A DNA stretch of 64,000 nt from Aureimonas altamirensis (lineage in GTDB: Bacteria > Pseudomonadota > Alphaproteobacteria > Rhizobiales > Rhizobiaceae): contig NZ_BBWQ01000009.1 of NCBI RefSeq assembly GCF_001463885.1, forward strand, positions 1-64,000, in the 5' to 3' direction. The translations under genes and the position numbers were made by a program. This document shows, piece by piece, positions 7,273 through 43,851 of the stretch (the stretch's first letter is position 1; each line of letters starts with the position of its first letter). A model generated the notes under the pieces. That model did not search any database. It was not told the DNA's origin and worked only from the letters and a program-made list of their open reading frames with translations.

Positions 7273-7944
7273 ATGGGCAGGATAGAATCGGCAGATCTGG
7301 TCGATATCTTCCGCGTGGTCTCCACGCGGCTGTCGGAAGCGCGCGGCTGGCTGGGAGAGCTGGACGGCGCAATCGGCGATGCGGACCATGGCACGTCCAT
7401 GGCCGAGGGGTTTGCCGCCATCGTCCGTGCCACCCGCGATGCGGCGGCCGGCGGCACGCCAGCCGGCGCCTTGTTTCCGATTGCGGCGCGGTCCTTTCTC
7501 AGCGCCGTCGGGGCAACGGCCGGGCCGTTGTATGCCAGCGCGCTGCTGCGGGCAGGGCAAGGGTTTGAAGACGCCGAAAGCCTGTCGGACAGCGACATAG
7601 CCAATCTCGTACCGGCCATGGCGGATGGCATCCGCCAGCGCGGCAAGGCCGCCGCCGGCGACAAGACCATGATGGACGCATGGGGGCCTGCGGCCCGCGC
7701 CGTTGAATCCGCCCTGGCCGCAGGGGCTTTGCCGCTGCGCGCACTCGACGCCGCGCTGGAAGCGGCCATCGAGGGGCGCGATTCCACAAGGGCCATGGTT
7801 GCCTCCAAGGGCCGCGCCGCGCGCCTGGGCGAGCGCAGCCTCGGACATCTGGACCCCGGCGCCGCATCCGCCGTCATCGTCATCGAAGGGCTTCGTGACG
7901 GACTGGCGTTGATCCTGCAGCGCAAGGGCGAGGCCGCTCGATGA
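7273..7944 (+). CDS. dhaL: Second DhaL-type kinase subunit
   Basis: This 223-residue protein is a diverged paralogue of the preceding DhaL. It keeps all three metal-binding aspartates (ELDGAIGDADHG), GATAGPLYASALL in place of the glycine loop, GDKTMMDAWGPA, and the late LDPGAAS loop. The intact motifs argue for an active nucleotide-binding subunit rather than a decaying copy. Its stop overlaps the start of the SorC-DhaK fusion by 4 bp (ATGA), so the two are probably made together and may form a second kinase. Whether the two DhaL proteins differ in ketose partner or stereochemistry cannot be told. Confidence 0.88.
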   Translation: MGRIESADLVDIFRVVSTRLSEARGWLGELDGAIGDADHGTSMAEGFAAIVRATRDAAAGGTPAGALFPIAARSFLSAVGATAGPLYASALLRAGQGFEDAESLSDSDIANLVPAMADGIRQRGKAAAGDKTMMDAWGPAARAVESALAAGALPLRALDAALEAAIEGRDSTRAMVASKGRAARLGERSLGHLDPGAASAVIVIEGLRDGLALILQRKGEAAR

Positions 7945-23404: not shown

Positions 23405-24619
23405 TCAGGCAGCACGAGGCAATACCAGAAGGTTGGTGTGCCCCTTGTCGGAAAAGACGCGCTCGACACCGTAATCGTTTTCGCCGAGCCAGAGGCGGAA
23501 AGCCTCCGCCGTGGTCTCGGCCACCTCGATGAAGATGGCGGGGCGGTTGCGTGCGATCACGCCCCTTGCGCCGGACAGGACGTCCATCTCCATCGCCTCG
23601 ACATCGATCTTCAGAAAGTCCACCGGCCCGGTCAAGAGGGCATCGAGTGGTTGAACCTTTATGTCGCCGGCAACATCCTCCACCAGCCGGGTTGCCCCAA
23701 GCCCGCCGCGCTCCGATTTTTCGGCACGCATAACGACCGGCCGTGCGCCGACGCCATGATGCAGCATCGAAAGATCCACATTGGCAAGCCGGTTCCACGC
23801 CACCGCGCGTGCCAGCATGTCGGCTGCCTCGGGCAGGGGCTCGAACGGAATGACGCGGGCCGCCTGCATCGGCCCGGCAAAGAAGATCGTGTGGTTGCCG
23901 GTGTTGGCCCCGATATCGGCGATCACGCGCCCCGGCCCAAGCCGGCGTCCGAGCCACGCCAGCTCGTCAGCCTCAAAGAACAGTCCGCGCGTCTGCTCTC
24001 GTTCGATGCCGGCATTCCGGCCCGTATAGGGCAGAAAATACCGGCTGTCGCCCCAGTCGACGGTAAGCCTTGCCGGGTCCAGGTGAAGACGCGCCAGGAT
24101 GGCGGTGCGTTCAATGGCGCTCAGCGGCTCCGGCTCGGCAGGCCGCTCGCTCAGGGGTTGCGCCAGCTTGACGGTGCGCGCATGGAGCCACAGCGCGAAC
24201 AGGGTGGCGACCTTGTCAACGTCGTCGAGATGGCCGGCCTCGGCAAGCCGGCAGATCGTATCGGTGCGGGCCAACACCGTCTCGCCCACCCACCAGTTGA
24301 GCAGCGCGTGGGGCAGCCGCGCCGCCTCGTCGAAGGCCAGGCGCGACGGCCGCCAAAGGGCAGGCGGGGCCCCCGTAGCCAGCGCCCCGAAGATGATGTC
24401 GTAATGCAGGCTCGCCAATGCGGCCCTGTCCAGCGCCTCCGGGGACGGTGTCTCCTGCGGCGGCGTATGGAACAGCCATTCGCAGCCGCGCTCCCTTGCT
24501 GCCTTTGCAAGGATGGCAAGGCGCATGCCGAATGCCGCCGCCTCCGGGACAGGTACCGCCTCGACGGTTATGAAAGGTCCCGCCGCCGCCAAAGCGGCGT
24601 CGTTGGCCGCAAGGCGCAT
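23405..24619 (-). CDS. FkbM-family methyltransferase with N-terminal extension
   Basis: This is a 404-residue protein. Residues about 230-400 form an FkbM-type SAM-dependent methyltransferase: VIADIGANTGNHTIFFAG (232-249) is the SAM loop, VIPFEPLPE the acidic loop, and VDFLKIDVEAMEMDVLSGA the motif after it. FkbM proteins usually O-methylate sugars in glycans or natural products. Residues 1-160 are not recognisable with confidence; WWVGETVLARTD and the surrounding region faintly resemble a glycosyltransferase-family-2 tail. Its start codon overlaps the upstream stop by one base (TGATG). A methyltransferase inside an importer operon is unusual. Confidence 0.82.
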   Translation of the reverse strand: MRLAANDAALAAAGPFITVEAVPVPEAAAFGMRLAILAKAARERGCEWLFHTPPQETPSPEALDRAALASLHYDIIFGALATGAPPALWRPSRLAFDEAARLPHALLNWWVGETVLARTDTICRLAEAGHLDDVDKVATLFALWLHARTVKLAQPLSERPAEPEPLSAIERTAILARLHLDPARLTVDWGDSRYFLPYTGRNAGIEREQTRGLFFEADELAWLGRRLGPGRVIADIGANTGNHTIFFAGPMQAARVIPFEPLPEAADMLARAVAWNRLANVDLSMLHHGVGARPVVMRAEKSERGGLGATRLVEDVAGDIKVQPLDALLTGPVDFLKIDVEAMEMDVLSGARGVIARNRPAIFIEVAETTAEAFRLWLGENDYGVERVFSDKGHTNLLVLPRAA

Positions 24620-27255
24620 CAGGCGGATTCCCGTTCTGTATGATGGATGGATGGGTCCACGGCGGCATAGGTGCCGCCGCGGCTGTAATTGTCGTGCCAG
24701 GCAATGAGCGGATCGGTAAAGGGGCCGCTCGCATACAGGCCGAGCTTGAAGTAAGGGCCAAGGGTCTGGTTGCGGTAGCCAAGCGTCCCGTTGAACCGGA
24801 ACAGGCTTTCGCCGTTCACGAAGCATTCCACGGCGCCGTCGCCGCCGCTGGGCCATTGGACGCGCAGGATAAAGTCCATCCATGTGCCGGCCGTCGCCGC
24901 CGTTTCCCCGAACAGATGGACGATCTCCGGTGTCGGCGATGCGATGGCGCCGGCGGCACCGGTAAAGCGCAGCACACCGCCCCGATAGCGCAGGGCTATG
25001 GGCGGCTTGCCGGATGGCTCGCCCAGCCGGGCCTGGTCATGCCATTGCGCCAGCACGATGGAGGTGTCCGGGGGCGGCGCGAAATCGACCGGCAGGAATG
25101 TGGAGAAGCCATACCAGCACTCGGCGCCGGGGGGCGCGTTCCACCAATCGCGCAACTCGGCGCGGTTGCCCTGGCTGACGGTATCCTGCGGCCGAAGCTC
25201 GAAGCGGCACGAAAAGCGCCCGGTGCGGGCGCGCGACGTGTCTGCCCGGGCCGACCATGGGCCGACGAGGCGCCGCGTGCTCCAGCCGTCCAGCGTGCCA
25301 TTCTCGAAATCCAGATGCACCGTCGCCTCGCCCTTCGGATCGGTGGCGATGGCGCGCGCGATCTCCTCGTGTTCGGCCGGGCTGCGTCCGCCAAGCTCTG
25401 CATCCGTCGGTACATGATGCGCGCGCACGGCATGGTCCGGGCCCACCGTCACCATGCCCGGCTCTGCGCCCGTAGCGTCGGGCAGGAAATCAGGCCCCCA
25501 TTGCGACGGCCCCGATTGCGTCAGGCCGATGGCATCCAGATCCAGCCGGTTGTTGGGGTCCGGCTCCGGCACGGCGCGGATCAGCGACCGCGTATAGGGG
25601 TGGCGCGGATCGGCGAAGAGGGCGGCGCGCGGCGCCGTTTCCACCAGCCGCCCGCCCGACATCACGGCGATGCGGTCGGCCAGATAGTCCACCACCGCCA
25701 GATTGTGCGAGATGAACAGGCAGGTGATGCCGAGCCTGTCCTTCAGGTCGCGCAACAGGTTCAGGATCTGCGCCTGCACGGATACGTCCAGTGCTGAGAC
25801 CGGCTCGTCCAGCACCAGCAATTCCGGCTCCAATGCCAGCGCGCGGGCGATGCCGATGCGCTGCCGCTGCCCGCCGGAAAAGCTGTGCGGGTATCGGGCC
25901 ATGTGGCTTTCGTCCAGGCCCACCAGCCGCAGCAGGTCCAGCGCCTTGTCCTGTCGGCTGGCCGGCGTGCCGATGCCGTGGATCTTCAGCGGCTCGGCAA
26001 CGATGGAGCCGACGGTCATGCGTGGATTGAGCGCCGAATAGGGGTTCTGGAACACGAACTGGATGCGCCGTCGCCATTGGCGCAAGGCTTCTCCCTCAAG
26101 CGCCAGCACATCGATGTCGTTACCGTCCGGGCCTGCCATGCGGATGCTTCCGGCATCCGCCTCGATGCTGCGCGCCAGGATGCGCGTAACGGTGGTCTTG
26201 CCGCTGCCGCTTTCTCCCACAAGGCCGAGGCACTCGCCGCGCCGGATTTCGAAGGATACGTCGTTGACCGCCAGCGGCGCGGGCTCGCTCTTGCTGCCGG
26301 GCCACAGTCCCGCCTTGCGCCCGGCAAAGCGCTTCTGCAGGCCTTCGGCCCGCAGCAGCACCGCCTGGGCGGCGGCCGGCGGCCGGGCGGTGGCCGGCAG
26401 CGAAACCGGAATGTCGCGCAGCGGTTTCAGCCGTTCGTCGCGCGGCATGCCGATACGCGGTACCGCGCCCACCAGCGCCTTCAGGTAAGGGTGGCGCGGC
26501 TGGGCGAAAAGCTCGTCGGCCATGCCGCTTTCCATCACCCGTCCATGGTGCATCACCACCATCTCGTCGGCGAGGTTGGCGACAACGCCAAGATCGTGCG
26601 CGATCAACAGGATGGCCGTGCCATGGTCGCGCTGCAGATCGCGCAGCAGGCGCAAAATCTCGGCCTGTACCGTCACGTCCAGGGCGGTCGTCGGCTCATC
26701 GGCAATCAACAGGGCCGGGCGGGTTATGGTGGCCATCGCTATCATCGCGCGCTGGTTCAGGCCGCCGGACAGTTCGAAGGGATAGGCGTCGATCTGCCGT
26801 TCCGGCTGCCGGAAGCCCACGGCCGCCAGAGCGTCGATCGCCCGTTTGCGGGCCTGTGCCGCATCGACCTTCTCATGCAGCATCAGCGCTTCGACGATCT
26901 GCGCGCCGATGGTGTGGAAGGCCGAGAAGGAGGTCGAAGGCTCTTGGAAGATCATGGATATGCGCGCGCCGCGCAGCGCCGTGAAACTGTTCGACAGCGG
27001 CGGCATGGCGGCAAGGTCGAGAGGCCTGGACAGGCCGTCATCGAACAGGATGCGCCCGGCCTCCATGCGGGCCGCGCCCGGTAGAAGGCCCATGATGGCG
27101 TGCGCCGTGACCGATTTGCCGGAGCCCGATTCGCCCACCAGCGCAACCGTGCCGCCCCGCGGCACGCGGAAGGATACGCCGCCCACGGCGCGCACCCGGC
27201 CGGATGGCGCATGAAAATCGACGATCAGGTCTTCAATCTTGAGAAGGTCGTCCAT
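24619..27255 (-). CDS. Duplicated peptide-type ABC ATPase fused to a polysaccharide-lyase-like domain
   Basis: This is an 878-residue protein. Residues 5-260 and 300-560 are two complete DppD/DppF-type ATPases: Walker A GESGSGKS (41-48) and GESGSGKT (347-354), signatures ELSGGLNQR and FSGGQRQR, and Walker [10 protein letters not shown] and LLVLDEPVS. Such fused ATPases (YejF type) are common and normally end near residue 610. Here the frame continues without a break into residues 645-865, which resemble the heparin-lyase-I-like polysaccharide lyase fold: [35 protein letters not shown] and [10 protein letters not shown]. That family normally acts outside the cytoplasm, whereas the ATPase part must be cytoplasmic. 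No second signal peptide is visible. A fusion or a lost stop codon are both possible. Confidence 0.88.
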
Positions 27256-27297: not shown

Positions 27298-27915
27298 TCA
27301 GTTGCGCATATCCACACTGTCTGGTTGCAGGTACAGAACGCCCTCCTGCCATTCCAGGATCAGCGCGTGGCCCTCTGCCGGAAAGCGGATCGGCGGCTTG
27401 CCCACCATGTCCCAGCCCGTCGCCAGGGCCAGCAGCGCGCGCATGACGCCCTTGTGCGTCACGATGACGGCGTCGGAGGTTGCTTCGGACAAGACCGCCA
27501 AGGCGCGCGCGCCGGCTTCGCGCGGCGTTTCGCCGCCCGGTGGCCGGAAATCGAGGCCGGCGGCCTCGCGGCGGGCAAACTCCGCGCCGCCTTCGGCGCG
27601 CATGGCGGCAAGCGTTGCCCCTTCGAGCGTTCCCCAGTCCATCTCCACCAGCCTGTCGTCGACAAGGGGCGACAGGCCCATCGCGCGTGCCGTGTCTAGG
27701 CAGCGCCGCAATGGGCTGCTGAAACAGGGGACGTGGCGAAAGCTTGCCGGCACCTGCCAGGCCCGGGCGCGTTCCACCCCTTCGGGCGACAGCGGACAAT
27801 CGGTCCGGCCCTGTATACGGCCCGCCGCATTCCAGGCGGTGGGGGCGTGGCGCAAAACCAGAAAGCGACGGCGCCGCCCTATGCCTTTGTTCGTGGCCGC
27901 GCTATCGGGAAGCAT
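27298..27915 (-). CDS. Histidine phosphatase family protein
   Basis: This protein of about 205 residues is of the phosphoglycerate-mutase-like branch. The phospho-acceptor motif is LRHAPTAWN, followed by GRIQGRTDCPLSPEG, SSPLRRCLDTA and the second catalytic histidine in VIVTHKGVMRALL. Small-molecule phosphatases of this family include alpha-ribazole and sugar-phosphate phosphatases; the substrate here is unknown. The start is uncertain; 27915 has a GGATGG site, and the frame remains open upstream into the divergent epimerase gene. The two genes diverge with only about 25 bp between starts. Confidence 0.82.
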   Translation of the reverse strand: MLPDSAATNKGIGRRRRFLVLRHAPTAWNAAGRIQGRTDCPLSPEGVERARAWQVPASFRHVPCFSSPLRRCLDTARAMGLSPLVDDRLVEMDWGTLEGATLAAMRAEGGAEFARREAAGLDFRPPGGETPREAGARALAVLSEATSDAVIVTHKGVMRALLALATGWDMVGKPPIRFPAEGHALILEWQEGVLYLQPDSVDMRN

Positions 27916-27940
27916 CGCCACCATCCGCGCGGGACCGTTC

Positions 27941-28945
27941 ATGCGTATTCTCATCACCGGTTGCGCCGGTTTCATCGGGTTCCATCTGGCCCGCCGGCTG
28001 CTGGACGCGGGGCACGCGGTGACGGGGCTCGACAATCTGTCGCCCTATTACGACCCCGCGCTGAAACGCGCCCGGCTGGCCGAGATCGAAGGCCGCAACG
28101 GCTTTCGCTTCGTCGACTTGGATGTCGAGAACGCGGCGGAGCTTGTTTCGCTTTTCGAGATGGAGCAGCCCGAAATCGTCTTCCATCTGGCGGCGCAGGC
28201 CGGGGTGCGGCACTCGCTCTCGCATCCGCAGGCCTATGTGGGGGCCAACATCGTCGGCACGTTCAACATGCTGGAAGCCTGTCGCGCCCATACGCCCGCG
28301 CATCTGGTGCTCGCATCCACCAGCAGCATCTACGGCGCCAGCACGACCATGCCCTTCGACGAGCGCGTCCGGACCGCCGAGCCGCTCACCATCTATGCCG
28401 CCAGCAAGGGCGCGGGCGAGCTGATGGCGCATTCCTATGCCCATCTGTATGCCATACCCACCACGGCGGTACGCTTCTTCACCGTTTACGGGCCGTGGGG
28501 GCGTCCCGACATGGCCTATTACATCTTCGCCCGGCGCATCCTGTCCGGCGAGCCGCTGGAGATCAACAATAACGGCTGCAGTCTGCGGGACTTCACCTAC
28601 ATAGACGACCTCGTAGAGGCGATGGCCCGCCTGATGGACGCCGTCCCCGGTGCGGAGGGCCGCGTCGAAGGCGATACGCTGAGCGCTGTCGCGCCCTATC
28701 GCGTCGTCAATGCGGGCGGAGGCCAGCCGGTGGGGCTGATGGACTTCGTCGCAGAAATCGAGAAGGCGGCCGGCGTGACGGCGCAGAAGCTGTATCGTGC
28801 GCTGCCGGCGGGCGATTCCGATGCCACTTTTGCCGATACGCGGCTGCTCCGCAGCCTGACCGGGTACGCACCGCAAACGCCGATTGCGGATGGCATCCCG
28901 AAATTCGTCGAATGGTATCGCGCGCAAGGTTTCCGCTACGCCTGA
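27941..28945 (+). CDS. NAD-dependent sugar-nucleotide epimerase (UDP-glucuronate 4-epimerase-like)
   Basis: This is a 334-residue short-chain-dehydrogenase-type enzyme. The Rossmann motif ITGCAGFIGFHLARRL opens the protein, the catalytic pair is in YAASKGAGE (Tyr and Lys), and YGPWGRPDMAYYIFARR is the hallmark of UDP-glucuronate/galacturonate 4-epimerases. The start at 27941 gives the standard N-terminus. It converges, with a 10-bp overlap, on a UDP-glucose 6-dehydrogenase gene. The two enzymes would act in sequence: UDP-glucose to UDP-glucuronate to UDP-galacturonate, for capsule, exopolysaccharide or LPS. Confidence 0.9.
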   Translation: MRILITGCAGFIGFHLARRLLDAGHAVTGLDNLSPYYDPALKRARLAEIEGRNGFRFVDLDVENAAELVSLFEMEQPEIVFHLAAQAGVRHSLSHPQAYVGANIVGTFNMLEACRAHTPAHLVLASTSSIYGASTTMPFDERVRTAEPLTIYAASKGAGELMAHSYAHLYAIPTTAVRFFTVYGPWGRPDMAYYIFARRILSGEPLEINNNGCSLRDFTYIDDLVEAMARLMDAVPGAEGRVEGDTLSAVAPYRVVNAGGGQPVGLMDFVAEIEKAAGVTAQKLYRALPAGDSDATFADTRLLRSLTGYAPQTPIADGIPKFVEWYRAQGFRYA

Positions 28946-30276
28946 CGCTGCAGGGGCAGGGCGCTTGCCGCCGGGCCGCGTCCCACCCCATGGTGGATCA
29001 GCCCGTGCTCGGCCATCGCCGCATGGCTGTAGACGTTGCGCAGGTCGATGAAGACATTGCCGCGCATGCGGGTCGACAGGGCTGCCAGATCAAGCGCGCG
29101 GTAGGCGTTCCACTCTGTCACCAGAACCACCGCGTCGGCGCCTTTTGCCGCCTCGTAGGCATCCTCCACCAGCCGTACGCCCGGCAACAGGGCGCGCGCA
29201 TTGTCCATGGCGCGCGGGTCGGTTGCCGTAACCTCCGCCCCTGCGGCCTGCAGGGCCTGCGCAAGATGGATGGACGGGGCTTCGCGCATGTCGTCGGTAT
29301 TCGGCTTGAAGGACAGGCCCAGCAGCGCCACGCGCAGGCCCTCCACGCTGCCGCCGAAGGCATGGGCGACGCGGGCGGCAAGCCCTTCCTTGCGCGCCAG
29401 ATTGCCCGCAACGGTGGCCTCCACGAGCGCCAGCGGCGTGCCATGGGCGCGCGCCGTTTCCAGAAGCGCCTGCGTATCCTTGGGGAAGCACGAGCCGCCA
29501 TAGCCGGGGCCGGCATGCAGGAACTTCGGGCCGATCCTGTTGTCCAGCCCGATGCCGCGCGCAACCTCCTGCACGTCCGCACCAATCCTCTCGCACAGAT
29601 CGGCCATTTCGTTGATGAACTCGATCTTCATCGCCAGAAAGGCGTTGCCGGCATATTTCACCAGCTCGGCATCGCGCCGGCCGGTGAACAGAAGCGGCGC
29701 CCGGTTGATCGACAGCGGGCCGTAGACGGCCTCCAAGACCGCCCGTCCGTGCGCGTCTTCGGTGCCGACGACGATCCGGTCCGGGCGGCAGAAATCCTCG
29801 ATGGCCGCGCCCTGGCGCAGGAACTCCGGGTTGGAAACAACGGAAACGGGGCGTGCCGGCGCCAGACGGGACAGTTGAACGGCGATCCTGTCTCCGGTGC
29901 CCACCGGCACGGTGGACTTGGTGGCCACGACCGCGCCCGGCTTGAGATGCCGGGCAATGCCTTCAACCGCTGCTTCCACGAAGCTGATGTCAGCATGGCC
30001 GTCGCCGCGCCTGGAAGGGGTGCCGACCGCAATGAAGACGACATCGGCGTCTGCAACCGACGCTTGCATATCCTGTGAGAATCGCAGGCGGCCGGCGGAA
30101 ACGTTGGTTGCCACGAGCTGGTCCAGCCCGGGCTCGAAGATCGGCATGATGCCGGCTTCCAGCGCCTGGATGCGTGCGGAATCCCGGTCGACGGCGGTCA
30201 CGTCATGTCCGAAATCCGCAAGGCATGCGCCGGAAACGAGCCCGACGTAACCACAACCGATCATAGCTATGCGCAT
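28936..30276 (-). CDS. ugd: UDP-glucose 6-dehydrogenase
   Basis: This 446-residue enzyme makes UDP-glucuronate from UDP-glucose with two NAD. It has the N-terminal NAD fold (IAMIGCGYVGLVSGACLADF), the active-site cysteine in GYGGSCFPKDT (around residue 256), KYAGNAFLAMKIEFINE, and the C-terminal UDP-binding domain with LGLSFKPNTDDMREAPS. The start at 30276 has an AGGTGG ribosome site; an in-frame ATG 36 bp upstream lacks one. The product would feed the convergent epimerase. It lies between the transporter region and the cyclic-nucleotide module. Confidence 0.93.
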   Translation of the reverse strand: MRIAMIGCGYVGLVSGACLADFGHDVTAVDRDSARIQALEAGIMPIFEPGLDQLVATNVSAGRLRFSQDMQASVADADVVFIAVGTPSRRGDGHADISFVEAAVEGIARHLKPGAVVATKSTVPVGTGDRIAVQLSRLAPARPVSVVSNPEFLRQGAAIEDFCRPDRIVVGTEDAHGRAVLEAVYGPLSINRAPLLFTGRRDAELVKYAGNAFLAMKIEFINEMADLCERIGADVQEVARGIGLDNRIGPKFLHAGPGYGGSCFPKDTQALLETARAHGTPLALVEATVAGNLARKEGLAARVAHAFGGSVEGLRVALLGLSFKPNTDDMREAPSIHLAQALQAAGAEVTATDPRAMDNARALLPGVRLVEDAYEAAKGADAVVLVTEWNAYRALDLAALSTRMRGNVFIDLRNVYSHAAMAEHGLIHHGVGRGPAASALPLQRQA

Positions 30277-30387
30277 GACTGCCCACCTTTCTGCCGGATC
30301 ATAGGCAGGCAAACCATAAGTCGCGTCAATTGCAGTTGTATGATGCCGGCGGGCTACGGTCCGTTTCCGAAACGGCGACGAGAGAGC

Positions 30388-31626
30388 TCAACCGGTGGTG
30401 GTTCGCTCCGGCACGAGCGCGAATAACGGGACGGAGTCGCGGAAGCCGCGCAACGGCACAGGCCCCATGGCTTGCCATCGCTGCGGGGCGGCCTGGGCGA
30501 TCTCTTCGGTGGCCAAGACGCGAACGCGCAGGGTCTTCGTCATCTTTTCCATGCGCTCGACCTCGTTGGCGCTGGGGCCGATGACCGAAAAGGACAGGCG
30601 TTGGCGAATGCCGATATTGCCGAGCCGGACTTCGCCGACACACATGGCGATGCCGAAGTGGATGGGCGGCTGGCCCTTGGTGATGCGCCTTGCATTGACG
30701 TGCTCTGCCACCTCGAGGGCGGCGTCCGCGGCCTGCATGCCCAGAAGCGATGCCTGGCTTTCGCTGAAGGCGGCTTCCGAAATCGGAAAGATCGCCATGA
30801 CGGCATCGCCGATAAAGGCGAGGATTTCCCCGCCGGCCTCCACCACGGCGCGTCCCGTGCTGTCGAAGTAGTCGTTCAGCAATGCCAGATAGGGCTCGCT
30901 GCCCATCGATTCAGCCAGCGCGGTGGAATCGCGCAGGTCCGAATACCAGATCAGGGCTCGCACCTGGCTGCCGCTACCCAAGGTTATGCGCCCGCCCAGC
31001 ACCTCGCGCGCGATGGTGGGGCCGAGATAGGTGTTGGCGACGCCGAAGATCAGACGGGGCAGCGCCAGCGACTTGCACACCATGGCGACATAGCGCTGGA
31101 TATGCTCCAGAAGCTCGGCGGCGTCGTCCGAAAAACCGGCCGGATCCTTTGTCGCCCAGGCGACGTAGAGCCCGAAATCGAGGTCCGAACTGCCCTGCCG
31201 CAGCATGGAGCCGTCGGCGAAGAGTTGCGTCCGCAGGGCAACGAAGTCCACGAAAGCCTCGGCGCGCAACTCGTCGTACAGTGGAAATGTCGGGTTGGGG
31301 GTCGGTCCGTCGAGCCGCGCGCGCAGAAGGTTGGAGCCATTCTCCAGCATCCATTTGACGGTGCTCTGCTGCCAGGCCGTATCGTCCACGCGCTCGCGGT
31401 CGAAGCGTTGGCTGGTGACGCCGAATTCGGTCGTCCACAGCAATGTCTCGGCTTCGAACAGGGGGTGAAGCGTCGGCCAGGTCAGCCGGCAGCGGTCGAC
31501 CGGTACGCCCAGCGCCGTCAGGCGGCGTGCCAGTTCGGGCACCACCGATTTCAGCGGCGCATCGGCCAGCATCTCGCCGACCATCCATTCGCCCAGCTCG
31601 TGCAGGCTTTTGCGGTCGATGCTCAT
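30388..31626 (-). CDS. Class III adenylate/guanylate cyclase
   Basis: This is a 412-residue soluble protein. The C-terminal half (residues about 218-400) is a nucleotidyl cyclase domain with both metal-binding aspartates, Asp230 in YSDLRDST and Asp274 in FIGDAVMAIF, and the transition-state Asn/Arg pair in NEVERMEKM (354-362). The N-terminal 200 residues have no motif that I recognise and could be a sensory domain; no membrane segment is seen. Whether it makes cAMP or cGMP is not decided by visible residues. It is the last gene of a four-gene operon and overlaps the metallo-hydrolase gene by 4 bp, with a cyclic-nucleotide-binding protein further upstream. Confidence 0.9.
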   Translation of the reverse strand: MSIDRKSLHELGEWMVGEMLADAPLKSVVPELARRLTALGVPVDRCRLTWPTLHPLFEAETLLWTTEFGVTSQRFDRERVDDTAWQQSTVKWMLENGSNLLRARLDGPTPNPTFPLYDELRAEAFVDFVALRTQLFADGSMLRQGSSDLDFGLYVAWATKDPAGFSDDAAELLEHIQRYVAMVCKSLALPRLIFGVANTYLGPTIAREVLGGRITLGSGSQVRALIWYSDLRDSTALAESMGSEPYLALLNDYFDSTGRAVVEAGGEILAFIGDAVMAIFPISEAAFSESQASLLGMQAADAALEVAEHVNARRITKGQPPIHFGIAMCVGEVRLGNIGIRQRLSFSVIGPSANEVERMEKMTKTLRVRVLATEEIAQAAPQRWQAMGPVPLRGFRDSVPLFALVPERTTTG

Positions 31627-32498
31627 GCGGATGCGCCAGTGCGGGCGGGAAGTTCGAACACCTGCCCGATGCGTGCCGCCGTCGTGCCGGGGAAGACCGC
31701 GCGGCAGGCTGCTTCCGTTTCGCGCAGGACGGCGTCTGAATGCTTGAACGAGTGATGGAAAAGCACGAGCTGGCCAACGCCGGCCCGCTTGCAAAGGCGT
31801 ACCCCTTCCTCGTGCGAGGAATGGCCGTAGCCGCGAAAGCGCTCCATCTCGGCATCCGAATACGTCGTGTCGTAGACCAGAAGATCGGCATTCCGGACGA
31901 AGTCGGTGAGCGCCTCGTCGACGGTGCCGGGCGTGTGTTCATGGTCGGTGGCATAGACGAGGCAGCGCCCCCCATGCTCGATGCGATAGGCGACGGCGCC
32001 GTTGGGGTGGGTCAGCCTGTAGGTGGCGATCGTGGTGCGCGGCGTCGGTTGCAGCCTGTCCCCCGGCTTGAAGGTCATGAAGCTCAGCCGCGCTTTCAGC
32101 GCCTCGATGCCGACGGGGTGGAAGGGCGCGCGCATGAAGTCGCGTACAAGCGCCTCGCACGAGGCGCCATCCAACATGTGCCCTGCATGGATGCGGACCG
32201 AGGCTGCCGGATCGTACATCGGCATGAAGTAGGGCAGGCCGATGATGTGGTCGTAATGCATGTGGCCGAAGAACAGGTCCACGTCGTTCCAGCCGTCGGC
32301 CGCCAAGGCCCGTCCGCATTCCACGATGCCCGAACCGGCATCGAACACAAGCGGCCGGCCGTCGGCCTCCACCAGCACGCAGCAGCTACGGGCGCCGAAT
32401 TCGCTTGGGTCGTCAGGCGCGGAGGGGATCGTTCCGCGCGCACCGAATATGGTGAGGCGCAATCCGTCGAAGGCCCCGATCCGCTGTCTGGATGTCAT
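31623..32498 (-). CDS. Metallo-beta-lactamase-fold hydrolase
   Basis: This 291-residue protein carries the dinuclear zinc motif HMHYDH (in FFGHMHYDHIIGLP) and later ligands in YATDHEHTPG, where Asp and His are placed as in RNase Z/phosphodiesterase-type members, and a final His near GYGHSSHEEG. The strongly polar active site and the neighbours, a nucleotidyl cyclase downstream and a cyclic-nucleotide-binding protein upstream, suggest a cyclic-nucleotide phosphodiesterase that would terminate the signal. The fold is sure; that activity is inference. It is coupled to the cyclase gene by a 4-bp overlap and follows the binding-protein gene by 10 bp. Confidence 0.87.
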   Translation of the reverse strand: MTSRQRIGAFDGLRLTIFGARGTIPSAPDDPSEFGARSCCVLVEADGRPLVFDAGSGIVECGRALAADGWNDVDLFFGHMHYDHIIGLPYFMPMYDPAASVRIHAGHMLDGASCEALVRDFMRAPFHPVGIEALKARLSFMTFKPGDRLQPTPRTTIATYRLTHPNGAVAYRIEHGGRCLVYATDHEHTPGTVDEALTDFVRNADLLVYDTTYSDAEMERFRGYGHSSHEEGVRLCKRAGVGQLVLFHHSFKHSDAVLRETEAACRAVFPGTTAARIGQVFELPARTGASA

Positions 32499-32508
32499 GG
32501 TACCTGCT

Positions 32509-32976
32509 TTACATGTCCGGCCGCTCGCCTTCGCCGCGCAGCATCACCAGCTCGGCGGACGTGCGGGACAGGCGCTGCGCCAGCTCGCGCAGCATGGCAA
32601 GCGCCATGCCGGGGAAGCTTTCCAGCATCTCGGCAAGGCAGTCCTTGGCGATGCGCAGGGTGCGCAGCGACGTTGCCGCCTGCACCGTGGCGGTGCGGGA
32701 GACGTCGCACAGAATGCCGATTTCTCCGACGATCTCATGCTGCCCAAGGCGGGCAAGCTGGATAGGGCCGATGGGCGACTCTGCCAGCACGACAACCTCT
32801 CCGGACAGGATCACATAGGCGCTGTCGCCAGGGTCTCCCTGTCGAAACAGGACTTCCCCGGCGTCGAAGCGGACCATCTCGCCGGTATAGGCAAGCAGCT
32901 TCAACTGCGGCGTTTCCACGCCGGCAAACATGGGGCTGCGTCGAAGAACTTCGACTTCGTCCGTCAACAGGCTCAT
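32509..32976 (-). CDS. Stand-alone cyclic-nucleotide-binding domain protein
   Basis: This 155-residue protein consists of a single Crp-type cyclic-nucleotide-binding domain with a short C-terminal helix. The phosphate-binding cassette is clear: GEIGILCDVSRTAT (84-97), with the Glu for the ribose and the Arg for the phosphate. There is no helix-turn-helix, so it is not a transcription factor by itself. It probably acts as a sensor subunit for another protein. Its start overlaps the stop of the ABC-like membrane protein by 4 bp, which makes that protein the first candidate partner. Confidence 0.9.
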   Translation of the reverse strand: MSLLTDEVEVLRRSPMFAGVETPQLKLLAYTGEMVRFDAGEVLFRQGDPGDSAYVILSGEVVVLAESPIGPIQLARLGQHEIVGEIGILCDVSRTATVQAATSLRTLRIAKDCLAEMLESFPGMALAMLRELAQRLSRTSAELVMLRGEGERPDM

Positions 32977-35714
32977 GGGGTGGCTCCCCTTGCTTGACGC
33001 GGCTCTCCGCGTAGGGCCTCTACTGGAGATTGGCCCAATGCCGCATCCTCGGCAAGGGCCTTGTCCTCCACCACGCGTCCGCCCTTGAAGCTTATCAGCC
33101 GCTCGAACTGGCTGGTGACGGCAAGGTTGCCGACCACCCAGAATACGCCGAAGGGCCGCTTGGCGTCACGGCCGCGCGCCAAGGTGGCCTGAACGATCTT
33201 CTGCTGCAGATTGCCGTCCAGCGAAGACAGGCAGCGGTTGGCGACAAGGTAGTCCGGCGCCTTCAGGATGGCGCGCGCCAGCGACAGGCGCTGCTGCTGG
33301 CTGACCGTCAGTCGCTTGGCGCCCGACCCGATGTCGAAATCCAGCGCCGCTTCCAGCACGATGTCCGACAGGCCGTTGCCATTGATGACGTCGACCAGGA
33401 TTTCATCCAGCGCGTCGCTCGTGGCGGACGTAACCTCGCCGACGCGGCCGAACACGATATTGTCGCGGATCGTGGCCGACGGGTTGAACTCGCCCGGCTC
33501 GTAAAGATCCACCTCCGCCAGCAGCGTTTCCGACGCCCCCGCATGCAGCGCGCGGCGCGCCTCGATGATGCGCTGCTTCAAGCCGGCATCGAGAAGGCCC
33601 AGCCTGTAGCGCGGTTCGGCATAGCCGAGCGCCAGCCGGATGAGCTGTCGCCGGTCGTCCAGCTCGGCCGCCCCGGTGGGGCGCCCTTCGATGCGCGCAA
33701 GGAGGGCGCGGAGCGCCTCGATTTCTTCGGCAGAGCCGATGGACATGCGCCGGAACAAGGGGTTGCCTTCGCCCATTCCACCGAACACCTCCACCAGCGT
33801 CTCGGCCATCTTGCGCCCCATTTCGGCCAATGGGGCATCGAGACCCGTGGACAGGATGATGTCGCGCACCTCGGACAGTGCGATAAGCTGGACGGCCATG
33901 GATTCTTCGCCGCGCATCGCGCCGAAGACGATGTTTTCGATGATGGTCGCATCGGAAAGAAAGGCATCCGGCGTGAAAAGCTGGACCGCCTTGGCAAGCC
34001 CACGCTCCTGCAGCCGCGCGCTGAAATCGGCGCGGGCCCGCAGAATGGGCCCTTCCGCAGCGGACACAAGCGCGTCCGGCACGGTCGAGCCGAGGCCGAT
34101 GCGCTTGATGTCGCGCGTCAACTGCGTGATGTCCAGAACCTCCCTGATCGCGGCCAGCCTTTCCTCGTGGCTGGCGCCGATGGCGGTATGGTCCACCCAA
34201 TCGCCTTCGGGCGTCTCCACACTGTTGCCCGATGCGATGGATTCGGCGCGCGCAAGCTGCTCTCGTCGGCTGACGGCCGGTGGGAGCTTGTCTTCCAGCC
34301 GGTGCATCAGCGGGTAGAAGAGGGCGGCCCTGAGGCTGGATTGCGGGAAGTAGGTCGTGGTGTCGACAAAGGCGATGCGCCGTCCGGTGATGCGCTCCGG
34401 CAGGTCCGCCAGGGCCCGTCCGCCATCGGTGACCGCGCCTTCCGAAGGCTGCGACAGGAGCGCCAGGGCCTCGGCCACGCTTTCCGCGCCGTCGCCGACA
34501 GGGCCGGTTGCCGCGACCTGCTGGGTCAGCGGCAGGGCAAGGTCGATGGCGGTGGCCAGCGAGATGCCGGTTTCGTCGCGGATGGTTACGCCCTCAAGGC
34601 GCAGGGGGCCGGTAAGGTGCGGTACCTCTCCGTCGACCTGCGCCTGCGAGCGCGGGTTCAAAAGCCCGTCCACATAGAACTGGTCCATCACCTGTTCGTA
34701 TTTGACGTTGACGTCCAGACGCGTCAGGTCCCAGTCGATCAGGTCTTTCAGCGGTGAGGGAAGCTCGCGGTAGGCGGCAATGGTGGCCACCAGCGCACCG
34801 ATGTCCATCTGCCCCGTAATGGCGAAATAGCCGCCGAACAGATAGAAGATGAACGGGGTGGCCTGTGACAGGAAGTTATTGAGAAATTTGACGAAAAACT
34901 TCCACTGGTAGATATCGAAGCGGATCAGGAAGATGTGTCCCAATTCGTCGGAGATGCGGGCCCGCACGAAGTTGGACACGTCGTTGGTGCGGATGGCCGG
35001 CATGCCCTCCACGATTTCGCCCACGGTGCCGGCAAGGCGCCGTGCGGCAAGCTGGCGTTGCCTGCCGAGTATCAGCAGCCGGCGGCGCATGCGTGGAATC
35101 ACCACAACCTGCAGGCCCATCACGGCCAGCGCCACGAGACCTAGCGTGAAGCTCTGGACGAAGATGAACACCATCGCCGTCAGGATCTGGCTCATCAGGT
35201 AGATCGGCTGGATGACGGCATCGCCGATGAAGCCGCCGATCGGCTCCAACTCGTCCTTGACCATGCTGGCGATCTCGGCCGGGCGTACCCGCCGCAGCCG
35301 CCGCATGGGGAAGCGCAGCACCCGGTCCACCATCTCGAAGCGCAGACGACGCAGCATCCGCTCGCCCAGCCGGCCCTTGTAGATGTTCAGATAGTATTTG
35401 AACGCGCCATTGACGATGACGAGGCCCAGGAACAGCGCCGACAGGATGTAGAGCGCCTCCAGCCGCTCCAGCTCCAGGCCGGAGTAGACATCCGCCCCGC
35501 CGAAGGAGGGCAGGAAATCCGGCAGGCTCCAGCGGAAATAGGTATCGGTACTGCCATTCTCGAAGCCCGAGCCCTGAATGGGGCCGTTGATGATGAGCTT
35601 GGGCAGGTTGAGCGACAGATAAAGCGGCACCACCGAAACGATGACGATCACCAGCATCCAGAGCTGCTGGCGTTTCGTGTGCTTCCATAGGTAGCTGTAA
35701 AGGGATGGCGCCAT
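32973..35714 (-). CDS. ABC-exporter-like membrane protein with degenerate, expanded ATPase domain
   Basis: This is a 913-residue protein. Residues 1-330 form an ABC exporter type I membrane domain with six probable helices (strong segments at about 17-37, 87-105, 165-205 and 280-300). Residues 360-880 should be the ATPase, but the catalytic motifs have decayed. The P-loop position reads GPVGDGAES (404-412, no Lys), the signature reads LTVSQQQRL (802-810), Walker B reads LVANRCLSSLD with no catalytic Glu, and the H-loop His is replaced in FWVVGNLA. In between, about 370 extra residues contain three Q-loop-like stretches (near 449-469, 581-600 and 738-757), two with the ENIVFG/DNIVFG core. It is first in the cyclic-nucleotide operon. 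ATP-driven export seems doubtful; a signal-regulated channel or scaffold is an alternative. Confidence 0.85.
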   Translation of the reverse strand: MAPSLYSYLWKHTKRQQLWMLVIVIVSVVPLYLSLNLPKLIINGPIQGSGFENGSTDTYFRWSLPDFLPSFGGADVYSGLELERLEALYILSALFLGLVIVNGAFKYYLNIYKGRLGERMLRRLRFEMVDRVLRFPMRRLRRVRPAEIASMVKDELEPIGGFIGDAVIQPIYLMSQILTAMVFIFVQSFTLGLVALAVMGLQVVVIPRMRRRLLILGRQRQLAARRLAGTVGEIVEGMPAIRTNDVSNFVRARISDELGHIFLIRFDIYQWKFFVKFLNNFLSQATPFIFYLFGGYFAITGQMDIGALVATIAAYRELPSPLKDLIDWDLTRLDVNVKYEQVMDQFYVDGLLNPRSQAQVDGEVPHLTGPLRLEGVTIRDETGISLATAIDLALPLTQQVAATGPVGDGAESVAEALALLSQPSEGAVTDGGRALADLPERITGRRIAFVDTTTYFPQSSLRAALFYPLMHRLEDKLPPAVSRREQLARAESIASGNSVETPEGDWVDHTAIGASHEERLAAIREVLDITQLTRDIKRIGLGSTVPDALVSAAEGPILRARADFSARLQERGLAKAVQLFTPDAFLSDATIIENIVFGAMRGEESMAVQLIALSEVRDIILSTGLDAPLAEMGRKMAETLVEVFGGMGEGNPLFRRMSIGSAEEIEALRALLARIEGRPTGAAELDDRRQLIRLALGYAEPRYRLGLLDAGLKQRIIEARRALHAGASETLLAEVDLYEPGEFNPSATIRDNIVFGRVGEVTSATSDALDEILVDVINGNGLSDIVLEAALDFDIGSGAKRLTVSQQQRLSLARAILKAPDYLVANRCLSSLDGNLQQKIVQATLARGRDAKRPFGVFWVVGNLAVTSQFERLISFKGGRVVEDKALAEDAALGQSPVEALRGEPRQARGATP

Positions 35715-35801
35715 GAACGGTTCGTTACCTGCCGAGCTGCCTTGCCAACGCTAGCAGCGGAGAAGTACGACAGGTAGTGGTTTCTTGTGCGAAGTGCGAG
35801 C

Positions 35802-36920
35802 ATGCGTTTATCAGCGTCTCGAAACGGTCCGGTCGCCTTTCATGCACCAATGAAGGATCCGGACCATCCGGTGCCCTCGGGCGACCGGACCATGGCGCGC
35901 CTGTGGCTGCGTGCGCTGGAGCTGGCCGGGGCATCGCCCGTGCTGGCGACCAGCTTTTGCAGCCGCGACGGTGTCGGCGCGGCCGATGCGCAGGACGACA
36001 TCTTGGCCGGTGCCGAGCGTGAGGTGCAGCGCCTCGTGGCCGGGCCGGCCCCTGCCGTCTGGTTCACCTATCACAATTACTACAAGGCGCCGGACCTGAT
36101 CGGCCCCCGCATCGCTGCCCATTTCGGCATTCCCTACGTGATTGCCGAAGGCTCCAGCGCCGGCAAGCGGGGCAGTGGGCGATATGCGCGCTTCTCGGCC
36201 TTGGCGGACGAGGCCAACCGTGCCGCCGATCTTCATCTGATGCTGAACGGCCAAGACCGCGCCGGGCTGGAGGCCGTCGGCGCGCGGGACATTCTTGCCC
36301 TCCCGCCCTTCATCGAGACGTCGCAATGGCCGTGCAGGGCCGGCTGGCACATCGCAACACCGGTTCGGCTGGCCGCTGCAGCCATGATGCGGCCGGGCGA
36401 CAAGCTTGCCTCCTATGGCCTGCTGGCCGAAGCGCTGCGGCATGTGCCGGACGGCTGGCATCTTGAGATCGCCGGTGACGGGCCCGCGCGAGCGCAGGTC
36501 GAGGACCTGTTCCGGCCATTCGGCGACAGGGTGGCTTTTCTGGGCCAGGGGGACGCCGCCATGCTCGGCGCACTGTACCGCCGGAGCGACCTTATGGTCT
36601 GGCCCGGCGTCAACGAAGCCTTCGGCATGGCCTATCTGGAGGCCGCCGCCAGCGGCTGTCCCAGCCTTGCCATGGCGTATGGCGGCGTCGGGGAAGTGGT
36701 TGCCGACGGCGTGAGCGGCCATCTCGTCACTTCCGGCGACACGGCCGCCTATGCGCAAACCCTTAGTCAACTTTTGTCTCACCCGGCGCGGTTGGCCGCG
36801 CTTGGGCGCGGCGCGGCACAGTTGGCGCGCCGTCGCCACGACATCCAGGCCGCCGCATCGCTGGTGTCGGATTGCCTGCAACGCTTTGCGGGGCATGGGA
36901 GCCGGTCTTGCGTGTCCTGA
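35802..36920 (+). CDS. Glycosyltransferase family 4 protein
   Basis: This 372-residue GT-B fold enzyme has the N-terminal FHAPMKDPDHPVPSGDRTMA segment, typical of a subgroup of capsular or exopolysaccharide GT4 enzymes, and the nucleotide-sugar motif VNEAFGMAYLEAAASGCP with the EX7E pair. It would transfer a sugar from a nucleotide donor to a growing glycan at the cytoplasmic face of the membrane. The ATG at 35802 gives the family start, although its ribosome site is weak; a GTG at 35787 is an alternative. It is first in a plus-strand glycan operon and diverges from the ABC-like gene with 87 bp between starts. Its end overlaps the next gene by 13 bp. Confidence 0.87.
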   Translation: MRLSASRNGPVAFHAPMKDPDHPVPSGDRTMARLWLRALELAGASPVLATSFCSRDGVGAADAQDDILAGAEREVQRLVAGPAPAVWFTYHNYYKAPDLIGPRIAAHFGIPYVIAEGSSAGKRGSGRYARFSALADEANRAADLHLMLNGQDRAGLEAVGARDILALPPFIETSQWPCRAGWHIATPVRLAAAAMMRPGDKLASYGLLAEALRHVPDGWHLEIAGDGPARAQVEDLFRPFGDRVAFLGQGDAAMLGALYRRSDLMVWPGVNEAFGMAYLEAAASGCPSLAMAYGGVGEVVADGVSGHLVTSGDTAAYAQTLSQLLSHPARLAALGRGAAQLARRRHDIQAAASLVSDCLQRFAGHGSRSCVS

Positions 36921-41142: not shown

Positions 41143-41373
41143 ATGACTGGTTCTGCAACGGTAATGAAAACAGGCTGCCGCCTGGCAATCGGCGCGGGTG
41201 TCCTGTGCCTTCTCTTCCTGAAATCGCCTCCGGAAAGCGTCGCCAGCCTGGTGGCCAACGAGCCGATGCGGGCCGAGGTTACGGCCTCCTGCGTGGCTGG
41301 CCACCACCGCGCCGACGAGTGCGAGAATGCGCGTCTGGCCGAAGCCTATCTGACCCGCGTTTCCGCCCGCTGA
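41143..41373 (+). CDS. Small exported or single-span protein of unknown function
   Basis: This 76-residue protein is not assigned to any family. It has a positively charged N-terminus, one hydrophobic stretch (LAIGAGVLCLLFL) that may be a signal peptide or membrane anchor, and a short polar tail with two cysteines (VTASCVAGHHRADECENARL). The cysteine spacing and the histidines hint at a disulfide or metal site, which is speculation. Its 3' end overlaps the convergent glycosyltransferase gene by 28 bp. The start could instead be the ATG 24 bp downstream. Coding status is likely but not certain. Confidence 0.5.
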   Translation: MTGSATVMKTGCRLAIGAGVLCLLFLKSPPESVASLVANEPMRAEVTASCVAGHHRADECENARLAEAYLTRVSAR

Positions 41374-42587
41374 TCGACATCGCCTTGCGATAGATGCGCG
41401 GCGATCCTGCCGATGCCGGCATCGGCGGAAAAGTCGCCCGTCACACGGGCAAGGGCCGCCGCCCCCAATTGCAAACGCAATGCAGGCTGCCCGATCAGCC
41501 GCGACAGCCCCTTGGCCAGCGCCGCCGGGTTGCGTGGCGGCACCAGCAGCCCCTCCACACCATCGGTCACGAATTCGGGCACGCCGGCAAAGTCTGTCGA
41601 CAGGATGGGCAGGCCCTGCGTGGCCGCCTCCATCAAGACGTTGGGCAGGCCGTCGCGGTCTCCGCCATCGCCTTCGCGGCATGCCAGCACGAACAGGTCG
41701 GCCGCGCGCAGCGCCTCGATGACCTGTCCTTGAGGGCGCGCGCCCAACCAGTCGATCCGGCTGGCAAGGCCCAGCCGCTGTGCCGTTTCGGCAAGCGGCT
41801 TTGCCAGCTCTCCGCCACCGATCTGCGTCAGGTGCCAGTTCAGCCCGGCGGGCAGCAAGGCAAGAGCCTGCAACAGATCGTCATAGCCCTTCTTGGCCAC
41901 CAGACGCCCGATGCTGACCAGTTTGACCGGAGCGCCTTGTCCGTTGCCGCCGCCTTCGCGCACGGGCGGCGCCGGAAAGCGACCAAGATCCAGCCCGTGA
42001 TAGACAAGGCGCACGCGGCCCTTGTCGCCGTCCGGTGACAGGCGCACCAGCTCGTCGTGGCCCTGCCGCGTGCAGGTGGTGCCCCAGATGCTGTCGGCGA
42101 TCTTTTCGCGCTTTTCCCAGTCCGGCGTCGTCCAGATATCCTTGGCATGCGCGGAAAAGCTGAAGGGCAGTCGGCGAAGCTGCGCCGCGTAGCGGGCGAC
42201 GGAAGCGGGCGTATGCAGGAAATGCGCGTAGATCAGCGTGATCTCCGGCGCCAGTTCCCGTGCCAGAACCGCTGCCTGTCCTATGCGCCGCATCCGGTTG
42301 GGGCTCGGGTCTCGGCGAAGGTCGGCAAGCGCCGTGCGGACAAAGCCGCCAAAGCCCTTCTGGCGTGGCAAAGCCAGCACGCCGCGCAAGACGCGCAGCG
42401 GATCGTCTTTCAGATACTCGGGCAGGTAGGCGACAGGCGCCACGATCTGCTCGTGCATCGGATGGCGCGCGCGGTCCGTCGGGCGGCGCAGCGACCAGAT
42501 GTCCAGGCGAAAGCCCAGGCGCTCAAGCCCCAGTATTTCCTGCGCGATGAAGGTTTCCGAAAGCCGTGGATAGCCCTTCAGGACCAC
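41346..42587 (-). CDS. Glycosyltransferase family 4 protein (exopolysaccharide type)
   Basis: This 413-residue GT-B enzyme begins VLKGYPRLSETFIAQEILGL, the usual N-terminus of a colanic-acid-like GT4 subgroup. Later motifs are HAKDIWTTPDWEK, SIGRLVAKKGYDDLLQAL and the donor site DGLPNVLMEAATQGLPILST. I place the start at a GTG (42587) with TAGGA upstream, 7 bp past the stop of the upstream gene; an ATG at 42677 would overlap that gene by over 80 bp. It is cotranscribed with the GT-B gene upstream and faces the plus-strand glycan operon. Confidence 0.87.
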   Translation of the reverse strand: MVLKGYPRLSETFIAQEILGLERLGFRLDIWSLRRPTDRARHPMHEQIVAPVAYLPEYLKDDPLRVLRGVLALPRQKGFGGFVRTALADLRRDPSPNRMRRIGQAAVLARELAPEITLIYAHFLHTPASVARYAAQLRRLPFSFSAHAKDIWTTPDWEKREKIADSIWGTTCTRQGHDELVRLSPDGDKGRVRLVYHGLDLGRFPAPPVREGGGNGQGAPVKLVSIGRLVAKKGYDDLLQALALLPAGLNWHLTQIGGGELAKPLAETAQRLGLASRIDWLGARPQGQVIEALRAADLFVLACREGDGGDRDGLPNVLMEAATQGLPILSTDFAGVPEFVTDGVEGLLVPPRNPAALAKGLSRLIGQPALRLQLGAAALARVTGDFSADAGIGRIAAHLSQGDVDQRAETRVR

Positions 42588-42594
42588 GGCGATC

Positions 42595-43851
42595 CTACCG
42601 ACTTGCGGTTCGGGCCGTTTCTTCAGAGGGGCTGGAGAACCAGCCTCGCACCGTTGCGTCGATCGTATCGAGTCCATCAAGCAGCCTTGGCAGGGTCTTT
42701 TCCGAAGGTTTCGGGCGTCCGGGTAGGGCGCGGATGGCTTCTGCCATCAGATGCGGGTTGCGGTGGGCGCCGTCTTCCAGCCCGGCACCGTCCAGGCACG
42801 AGATGAGTCCCAGTTCGGCGGCGCGCTCGGCGCGGATGGTCTGTTCCATGCGCGGCGTGCGGCGCGGCACGATGACGGATCGTTTGTCGAAGGACAGGAT
42901 CTCGCAGAAGGTGTTGTAGCCACCCATGGCGATGACGCCTTCGGAGTTGGCGATCAAATGCTCGATCCGGGAATCGAAGGTGATCGCCTCCACGTCGGGC
43001 AGGCGGGCCACACGCTCCATGAAGGCGGCGCGCTGCTCGGGCGGCACGAAGGGGCCGAACACGATCAAAGCGCCGAGGGGCAGGGACCGGTCGGCCTCGT
43101 AGGCCGAAAGGGTCCAGTCGATCAGCCCTTCGCCGTCGCCACCACCGCCCGTCGTAACGAGCACATAGGGTTTGCGCATGATGGATGGGTAGGCCGCCGT
43201 CGCGGAAACCTGGGGCAGGTCGCGCCGGAGATAGCCGGTATAGATGATCTCGTTCTGCAGCCGCTCGGGCAGCGCGAAGGGAGCCAGCGGCTCGTGGATT
43301 TCGGGAAGGCCGTAGACCCAGACGTTGTCGTAGAAGGCAGACAGCGCCTCGGTGGCGCCCTTGCGCTCCCATTCGGGCACGATCACCGCGGCATCGTCCA
43401 GAACGTCGCGCAGGCCCAGCACGATGCGCGCGCCCGTCGCCTTCAGGTGTTCCAGCGTCGGCAGCAACTCGTCGCGGAAGCCGGCGGGCTCCTTGTCGAC
43501 GATGATGAGGTCGGGGTTCAGGCTGCGCGCCGTCGCCATGATGACGGAGCGGCGGATCTGCACGGTCTCGTCCAGCGACAGGCGCAGATTGGAGGTTGTG
43601 TACCCGCCATTCGGCAGCTTCACCACGCCCGGCACGCGTACGTAGTCGACGCCGTCTTCGAAGTCGAAGCGGCCGATGATGGGAGAGCCGGAAATGATGA
43701 CGATCGAGGCGTCGTCCATCGACCCGGCCAGCCGGTTGGCGATGGCGCGGCAGCGCCGAAGATGGCCGAGGCCGAACGTGTCGTGGCTGTAGATCAGGAT
43801 TCTCGGTCCGCCACGCCCCGTCGGACGGTCTTGCCGAAAATGTTGCGCCAT
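42595..43851 (-). CDS. GT-B glycosyltransferase (GT28/MurG-like)
   Basis: This 418-residue protein has a MurG-like layout. The N-terminal acceptor domain begins ILIYSHDTFGLGHLRRCRAI, and the C-terminal donor domain has VLVTTGGGGDGEGLIDW, then AMGGYNTFCEILSFDKRSVI and VPRRTPRMEQTIRAERAAEL. It is related in fold to the transferase half of the fusion encoded at 36908-38785. It probably adds one sugar in the same polysaccharide. It is the first gene of a two-gene minus-strand unit with the GT4 gene and diverges from the riboswitch-controlled receptor gene. Confidence 0.85.
   Translation of the reverse strand: MAQHFRQDRPTGRGGPRILIYSHDTFGLGHLRRCRAIANRLAGSMDDASIVIISGSPIIGRFDFEDGVDYVRVPGVVKLPNGGYTTSNLRLSLDETVQIRRSVIMATARSLNPDLIIVDKEPAGFRDELLPTLEHLKATGARIVLGLRDVLDDAAVIVPEWERKGATEALSAFYDNVWVYGLPEIHEPLAPFALPERLQNEIIYTGYLRRDLPQVSATAAYPSIMRKPYVLVTTGGGGDGEGLIDWTLSAYEADRSLPLGALIVFGPFVPPEQRAAFMERVARLPDVEAITFDSRIEHLIANSEGVIAMGGYNTFCEILSFDKRSVIVPRRTPRMEQTIRAERAAELGLISCLDGAGLEDGAHRNPHLMAEAIRALPGRPKPSEKTLPRLLDGLDTIDATVRGWFSSPSEETARTASR

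Follow-up and report, generated by a model that had tools for sequence, protein, structure and literature searches.

SUR and CFTR are ATP-binding cassette (ABC) proteins that have been turned to regulation or conductance; both still bind ATP, and to our knowledge neither is read by a cyclic-nucleotide-binding (CNB) protein. Direct cyclic-nucleotide control of bacterial membrane proteins is known mainly from CNB-gated channels, and proteins of the TIGR03896 family (bacteriocin-type transport-associated protein) are linked to ABC export operons. According to PMC10986499, the ABC exporter HetC of Nostoc PCC 7120 contains a CNB domain that is required for HetC function; ppGpp bound to this domain, whereas cAMP did not stabilise it. 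The domain is N-terminal and accompanied by a C39 peptidase domain, and the catalytic residue of the ATPase is essential. A cyclase, a CNB reader and a membrane effector are also combined in Pycsar, whose receptors are given as PycTIR or PycTM, with no ABC protein among them, in PMC11224242 and PMC9117128. Here we analyse a 64,000-nucleotide stretch of Aureimonas altamirensis DNA (contig NZ_BBWQ01000009.1, positions 1 to 64,000; hereafter the window), in which a gene for an ABC-exporter-like protein is followed by one for a lone CNB protein within a run of four minus-strand genes. A first, sequence-only reading of the locus knew of no described system of this composition; likewise, no description of either the ABC and CNB pair or the four-gene module was found in titles, abstract openings or passages returned by searches of an open-licence library, subscription papers being mostly outside this coverage. 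With moderate confidence, we interpret the locus as a cyclic-nucleotide-controlled pseudo-ABC module within a surface-polysaccharide locus.

The ABC-exporter-like protein (32973..35714, 913 aa) is followed on the minus strand by the CNB protein (32509..32976, 155 aa), a metallo-beta-lactamase (MBL)-fold hydrolase (31623..32498, 291 aa) and a class III nucleotidyl cyclase (30388..31626, 412 aa from its ATG; the frame may also be listed with a TTG start, at 468 aa). The coordinates of the open reading frames agree with the coupling originally described, i.e. a 4-bp overlap, a 10-bp gap and a 4-bp overlap, and the four family assignments made at that stage held, each protein scoring over its Pfam cut-off. 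The ABC protein matches ABC_membrane (PF00664) with 72.8 bits (cut-off 28) and ABC_tran with 27.4 bits (cut-off 25), the hydrolase Lactamase_B_2 with 60.2 bits (cut-off 27), and the CNB protein cNMP_binding (PF00027) with 70.6 bits (cut-off 27.5) and no second Pfam domain. The cyclase matches Guanylate_cyc (PF00211) with 35.7 bits (cut-off 21.9), its N-terminal region of about 220 residues being without a Pfam match. A scan of positions 30200-36000 returned 0 promoter-like sites (0.8 in shuffled sequences) and 4 terminator-like sites (3.5 in shuffled sequences). Among named records A. altamirensis A31 is nearest, its ABC protein being 95% identical to that of the window.

The conserved core of this arrangement consists of two genes, those of the ABC-exporter-like protein and the lone CNB protein. 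Of the named loci examined (the best 80 of 550 confirmed), 79 carry the CNB gene as the first family gene downstream of the ABC gene and in the same orientation; the eightieth locus stops at a contig end. Of 60 distant loci, picked from 57 of the 132 ABC-positive genomes of the class sample, 48 show the same order (the CNB gene lying 559 bases away in one of them), and nine encode a single protein in which the CNB domain is joined to the C-terminal end of the ABC part. The remaining three (L130, L158 and L177) have neither a CNB neighbour nor a fusion, and the frames next downstream, the first two in the case of L130, gave no Pfam match. Away from the pair, the family's own CNB profile, which may miss distant CNB families, found a single match of at least 30 bits in the 2.96 Mb of 153 loci. 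The neighbourhood of the two genes exceeds chance. The ABC protein was detected at E <= 1e-30 in 132 of 385 sampled genomes of the host's class, the window's own included, and at E <= 1e-60 in 32 of the 398 genomes of a phylum sample, 31 of them in the host's class; the 32nd match covers the transmembrane part alone. Plasticicumulans, which we take to belong outside the host's class, has the pair with an adjoining cyclase in its named record (L060). The pair is present in model rhizobia (S. meliloti pSymB and R. leguminosarum), where it is open to direct genetic study and constitutes a candidate cyclic-nucleotide target besides the Crp-like regulator Clr. Mirror-tree distances of the ABC and CNB proteins are correlated (Pearson 0.77 over 71 loci, Mantel p 0.001), a result given little weight because both sets of distances also track species kinship.

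The ABC protein begins with an exporter transmembrane domain, followed by a nucleotide-binding domain (NBD) fold that is split between its Walker A half and its signature half by a long extra segment (approximately residues 457-742; 33489..34346 on the minus strand, borders approximate). The Walker A Lys, the Walker B Asp and Glu, the signature and the H-loop His are all absent from the window protein. The corresponding positions were surveyed in a family set of 141 proteins (the window, 80 named and 60 distant loci) and in seven further exporter frames from this genome, chosen by match position. With one pattern set, a canonical Walker A GxxGxGK[ST] was present in 0, an SGG[QEM] signature anywhere in the chain in 2, and a Walker B followed by DE in 16 of the 141 members, as compared to 7 of 7 control exporters for each pattern; stricter patterns gave 0, 0 and 2 members, respectively. 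Read by alignment column, K+[ST] is found in 2, SGG in 0 and DE in 3 members, the Walker B Asp in 12 and the H-loop His in 17, and 84 of the 141 retain none of the five ATPase features. The protein consequently looks like a pseudo-ATPase as judged from its motifs, and the label of an ordinary ABC exporter was rejected on the basis of the motif loss. Incidentally, four of the five features are kept by just two members of the set, and one of these is L130, which is among the three distant loci that have no CNB neighbour.

Structural matches of the modelled protein support a type IV exporter fold, as in MsbA, PCAT1, TmrAB and TM287/288. This assignment is carried by the domain-wise alignments; whole-chain TM-scores against exporters are modest, reaching at most 0.59 of the target among the matches listed, since the extra segment and the positions of the domains differ. 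The best NCBIfam match is TIGR02203 MsbA, at 107.3 bits far under the cut-off of 602. The window protein differs from these exporters also in its lost ATPase motifs and in the extra segment, and from HetC-type PCATs in the loss of the same motifs and in having neither a peptidase nor a CNB domain according to Pfam. The extra segment holds a Q-loop/helical part, which is repeated at its downstream edge (residues 520-660 versus 690-800; probability 99.0 and E 4e-18 in a profile self-comparison). Asn594 is kept in 141 of 141 members and Asn752 in 140, with one gap. This unusual NBD with its repeated Q-loop-like segment presents a clear structural question.

A fold that is kept while its ATPase motifs are lost would also be expected of a transport-independent receptor or scaffold resembling SUR, i.e. 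an ABC-derived protein serving to anchor the CNB protein at the membrane for control of the glycosyltransferases or a polymerase. The existence of homologues comprising the transmembrane domain only is in line with such a role, and SUR chains are found in the list of structural matches, without ranking higher than other exporters. However, many residues of the transmembrane domain are invariant in the family, as is also expected of a conserved substrate path, and we regard the scaffold as unlikely. The transmembrane-only homologues themselves were seen at L203-L209 (e.g. L206:8016-9227) and are 360-425 aa long, with no recognisable NBD in frame. The one at L206 adjoins a multicopper oxidase and CopB, and several of the genomes in question hold a full-length ABC copy as well.

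The binding site of the CNB protein is well preserved. Arg94 of its phosphate-binding cassette is found in 137 of 137 CNB members and Glu85 in 129 of 137; the roles of the corresponding Glu and Arg have been seen for PycTIR (PMC11224242). In combination with the motif loss in the ABC protein, this conservation suggests an ATP site that has decayed beside a cyclic-nucleotide site that has been retained. Like TIGR03896 proteins, the CNB protein is tied to an export operon, but at 58.4 bits it falls far below the cut-off of that family (161.05). The genome contains eight CNB-family matches, six of which are, by eye, larger regulator-like proteins without a phosphate-binding cassette. The exceptions are the operon protein and a second lone CNB protein, a 167-aa frame at approximately 64760-65262 of G000:C12 (L224:260-763) in which a GE..R cassette is visible by eye.

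The remaining two genes of the operon are far less constant. The contiguous ABC-CNB-MBL-cyclase run is found in 8 of the 80 named loci (L038-L045, whose titles all give Aureimonas), in 0 of the 60 distant loci and in 2 of 13 further loci (L210-L222, of which L220 has an interrupted ABC frame and L219 a divergent ABC relative). These two are L213, from another genus of the same family, and L218, from another family of the same order. An ABC-CNB-MBL run without an adjacent cyclase occurs in 21 of the 80 named and 4 of the 13 further loci. The full-run counts rule out the four genes as one widely conserved unit. The conserved co-occurrence of all four families that had been put up for checking was therefore borne out only in that such runs exist, the ABC and CNB genes alone being broadly kept; similarly, the initial division into maker, eraser, reader and output stands as regards the ABC/CNB pairing, whereas the presence of a maker and an eraser varies between loci. 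A cyclase directly follows the CNB gene at L060, L073, L081, L110, L162, L175, L216 and L217, and L159 has one upstream of its ABC-CNB fusion. On a plasmid of Mesorhizobium sp. WSM1497, the MBL gene and the cyclase are separated by a DUF3095 gene (L120:15028-16191), presumably cyclase-related. The pair-adjoining cyclases of L175, L216 and L217 combine Fer2 and cyclase domains, other types being found elsewhere, and cyclases of differing make-up thus adjoin the pair in different lineages. The Fer2-containing form resembles CyaC of S. meliloti, described in PMC10463352 as redox-responsive, with a [2Fe-2S] cluster and a cyclase.

The cyclase of the window differs from CyaC in having no Fer2 match and in its base-selecting residues. 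Both metal aspartates, D230 and D274, are present as first reported and occur in 42 of 42 sequences, and Asn354 and Arg358 are kept. Four residues before the second metal Asp, at the position where we take Lys to be adenine-selecting, the window protein and six Aureimonas relatives (7 of 42) have Ala (Ala270 in the window); the same position is Ser in 23, Lys in 10, Arg in 1 and Asp in 1 of the 42. The operon cyclase is the only PF00211 match in a genome that is 99.98% complete, and no class I cyclase was found in that genome. Likewise, a genome of another family in the same order (G728) has a single PF00211 match, and its L216 locus places a CyaC-like cyclase directly beside the pair. Across the class, PF00211 is present in 131 of 132 ABC-positive and 117 of 253 ABC-negative genomes, in favour of a link between cyclase and pair, but genome size and kinship confound this figure.

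Unusual base-selecting residues, together with the shared scheme of a maker, a reader with a CNB domain and an output in the membrane, bring to mind a Pycsar-like antiphage system, in which the CNB-linked effector would disrupt the membrane once the nucleotide is made. The cyclase indeed matches PycC models of PADLOC; for the CNB protein there are matches to the TIR effector models (best 50.6 bits) and to PycTIR (48.2 bits), in each case in their CNB part. Still, the best PycC match (PDLC00734, 63.2 bits, no cut-off given) spans only the shared cyclase domain, positions 188-322 of 374, and the ABC protein has no PADLOC match at E <= 0.1. Moreover, many families of the class retain the pair, frequently next to glycosyltransferases and, in distant loci, mostly without a nearby cyclase. 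An antiphage role of this kind appears highly improbable, and Pycsar was rejected as a label because neither a PycTIR nor a PycTM effector is present, the CNB protein matching PycTIR in its CNB part only.

For the MBL-fold hydrolase, a phosphodiesterase activity is plausible on sequence grounds. HxHxDH and the other metal ligands are intact and invariant in 42 of 42 sequences, and the MBL fold and HxHxDH are features of the atypical class II phosphodiesterases YhfI, Rv1339 and CpdA (PMC9293780 and PMC9117128). The motif of this class is given as [T/S]HxHxDH in PMC9293780; T or S precedes HxHxDH in 36 of the 42 sequences, whereas the window protein has Gly78. YhfI of B. subtilis (6kns, as identified in PMC9293780), which favours cAMP and cGMP according to PMC9117128, matches residues 9-271 with E 3.3e-9, and the phosphodiesterase family NF041851 is matched with 64.6 bits over profile positions 1-237 of 253, below its cut-off of 400. 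Among PDB sequences the highest-ranking match is an RNase Z (2cbn, E 1.4e-11, residues 191-281), and TIGR02651 (RNase Z) scores 75.5 bits (cut-off 292.95), its best stretch covering residues 176-276.

Three glycosyltransferase genes of the window recur near the pair. One is divergent from the operon (35787..36920, plus strand) and its homologues occur in 57 of 83 loci, counting 40 of the 60 distant loci; a GT4-type enzyme (41346..42680, minus strand; best NCBIfam match EpsE, 158 bits, cut-off 400) recurs in 61 of 83 (42 of 60), and a GT28-C-like enzyme (42595..43851, minus strand) in 59 of 83 (40 of 60). Plasmid annotations for S. meliloti, R. leguminosarum, Mesorhizobium and Phyllobacterium place glycosyltransferase genes just upstream of the pair. 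SMb20813, which may or may not be the ABC gene of the pair, is named as an msbA homologue in PMC10945364.

In the mechanism that we favour, the class III cyclase, its metal residues being intact, would make a cyclic mononucleotide, and the small CNB protein would bind this nucleotide through its conserved cassette. The CNB protein would sit at the cytosolic face of the ABC-like protein, close to where the NBD ends, a placement well supported by adjacency and by the natural C-terminal fusions. Ligand binding, rather than the binding or hydrolysis of ATP, would then move the ABC-type transmembrane domain, ATPase activity presumably having been lost, and this domain may gate or partner the export or assembly of a glycan from the neighbouring glycosyltransferases. 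The MBL-fold enzyme, in lineages having one, could hydrolyse the nucleotide and reset the switch. A stronger statement, that a whole family of alphaproteobacterial ABC exporters has abandoned ATP, with a cyclic nucleotide driving or gating it via a dedicated CNB subunit, is put forward tentatively. If true, it would represent a new use of the ABC fold, with a CNB subunit paired or sometimes fused with an ABC protein that lacks ATPase motifs across the family as sampled, and a second messenger would directly operate glycan export or assembly.

Several observations weigh against this interpretation. The adenine-selecting Lys is absent from the cyclase, so a cAMP-specific enzyme is not supported and the nucleotide may not be cAMP; moreover, the ligand of an exporter-linked CNB domain may be something other than a cyclic nucleotide, since the CNB domain of HetC bound ppGpp. 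Near the pair, an MBL gene was found in 1 and a cyclase in 5 (at least 60 bits) or 6 (at least 30 bits) of the 60 distant loci, and for the hydrolase RNase Z profiles somewhat outscore those of phosphodiesterases. The glycosyltransferases, counted in 57-61 of 83 loci without a frequency control, belong to a common class of genes, and the window's two UDP-glucose-dehydrogenase-like genes and its FkbM methyltransferase are not recurrent (5, 5 and 1 of 83). In addition, the Walker A Lys is retained in 33 and the Glu after Walker B in 33 of the 141 ABC members, and at least three of the five ATPase features in 10; residual ATP binding is possible on account of the retained Lys and of these ten members. 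The retained residues, together with the kept exporter and NBD fold, are what would be expected of an ordinary ATP-driven exporter modulated by a cyclic nucleotide, its NBD being divergent but working or complemented by a canonical half-exporter in a heterodimer. However, the window protein has none of the five features, and pairing with a canonical partner would leave each of the two composite sites short of a motif from the ABC-like side. No second half-exporter is seen among the ten recurrent neighbour families that were annotated, a minority of those found, and the homologues without a recognisable NBD also argue against this alternative, which we judge unlikely.

Outside the operon and the glycosyltransferases, a histidine phosphatase gene (27298..28035, minus strand) has homologues in 39 of the 83 loci. 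The minus-strand frame at 24619-27255 looks unusual, in that its oligopeptide-type ABC ATPase part, which has two ABC_tran stretches, carries a polysaccharide lyase domain (PF14099, 130 bits) at the C-terminus. At 7941-9995, on the plus strand, a sugar-type transcriptional regulator is, by eye, joined to a dihydroxyacetone-kinase-like (DhaK) domain, and another DhaK-like gene is located nearby at 5594-6586.

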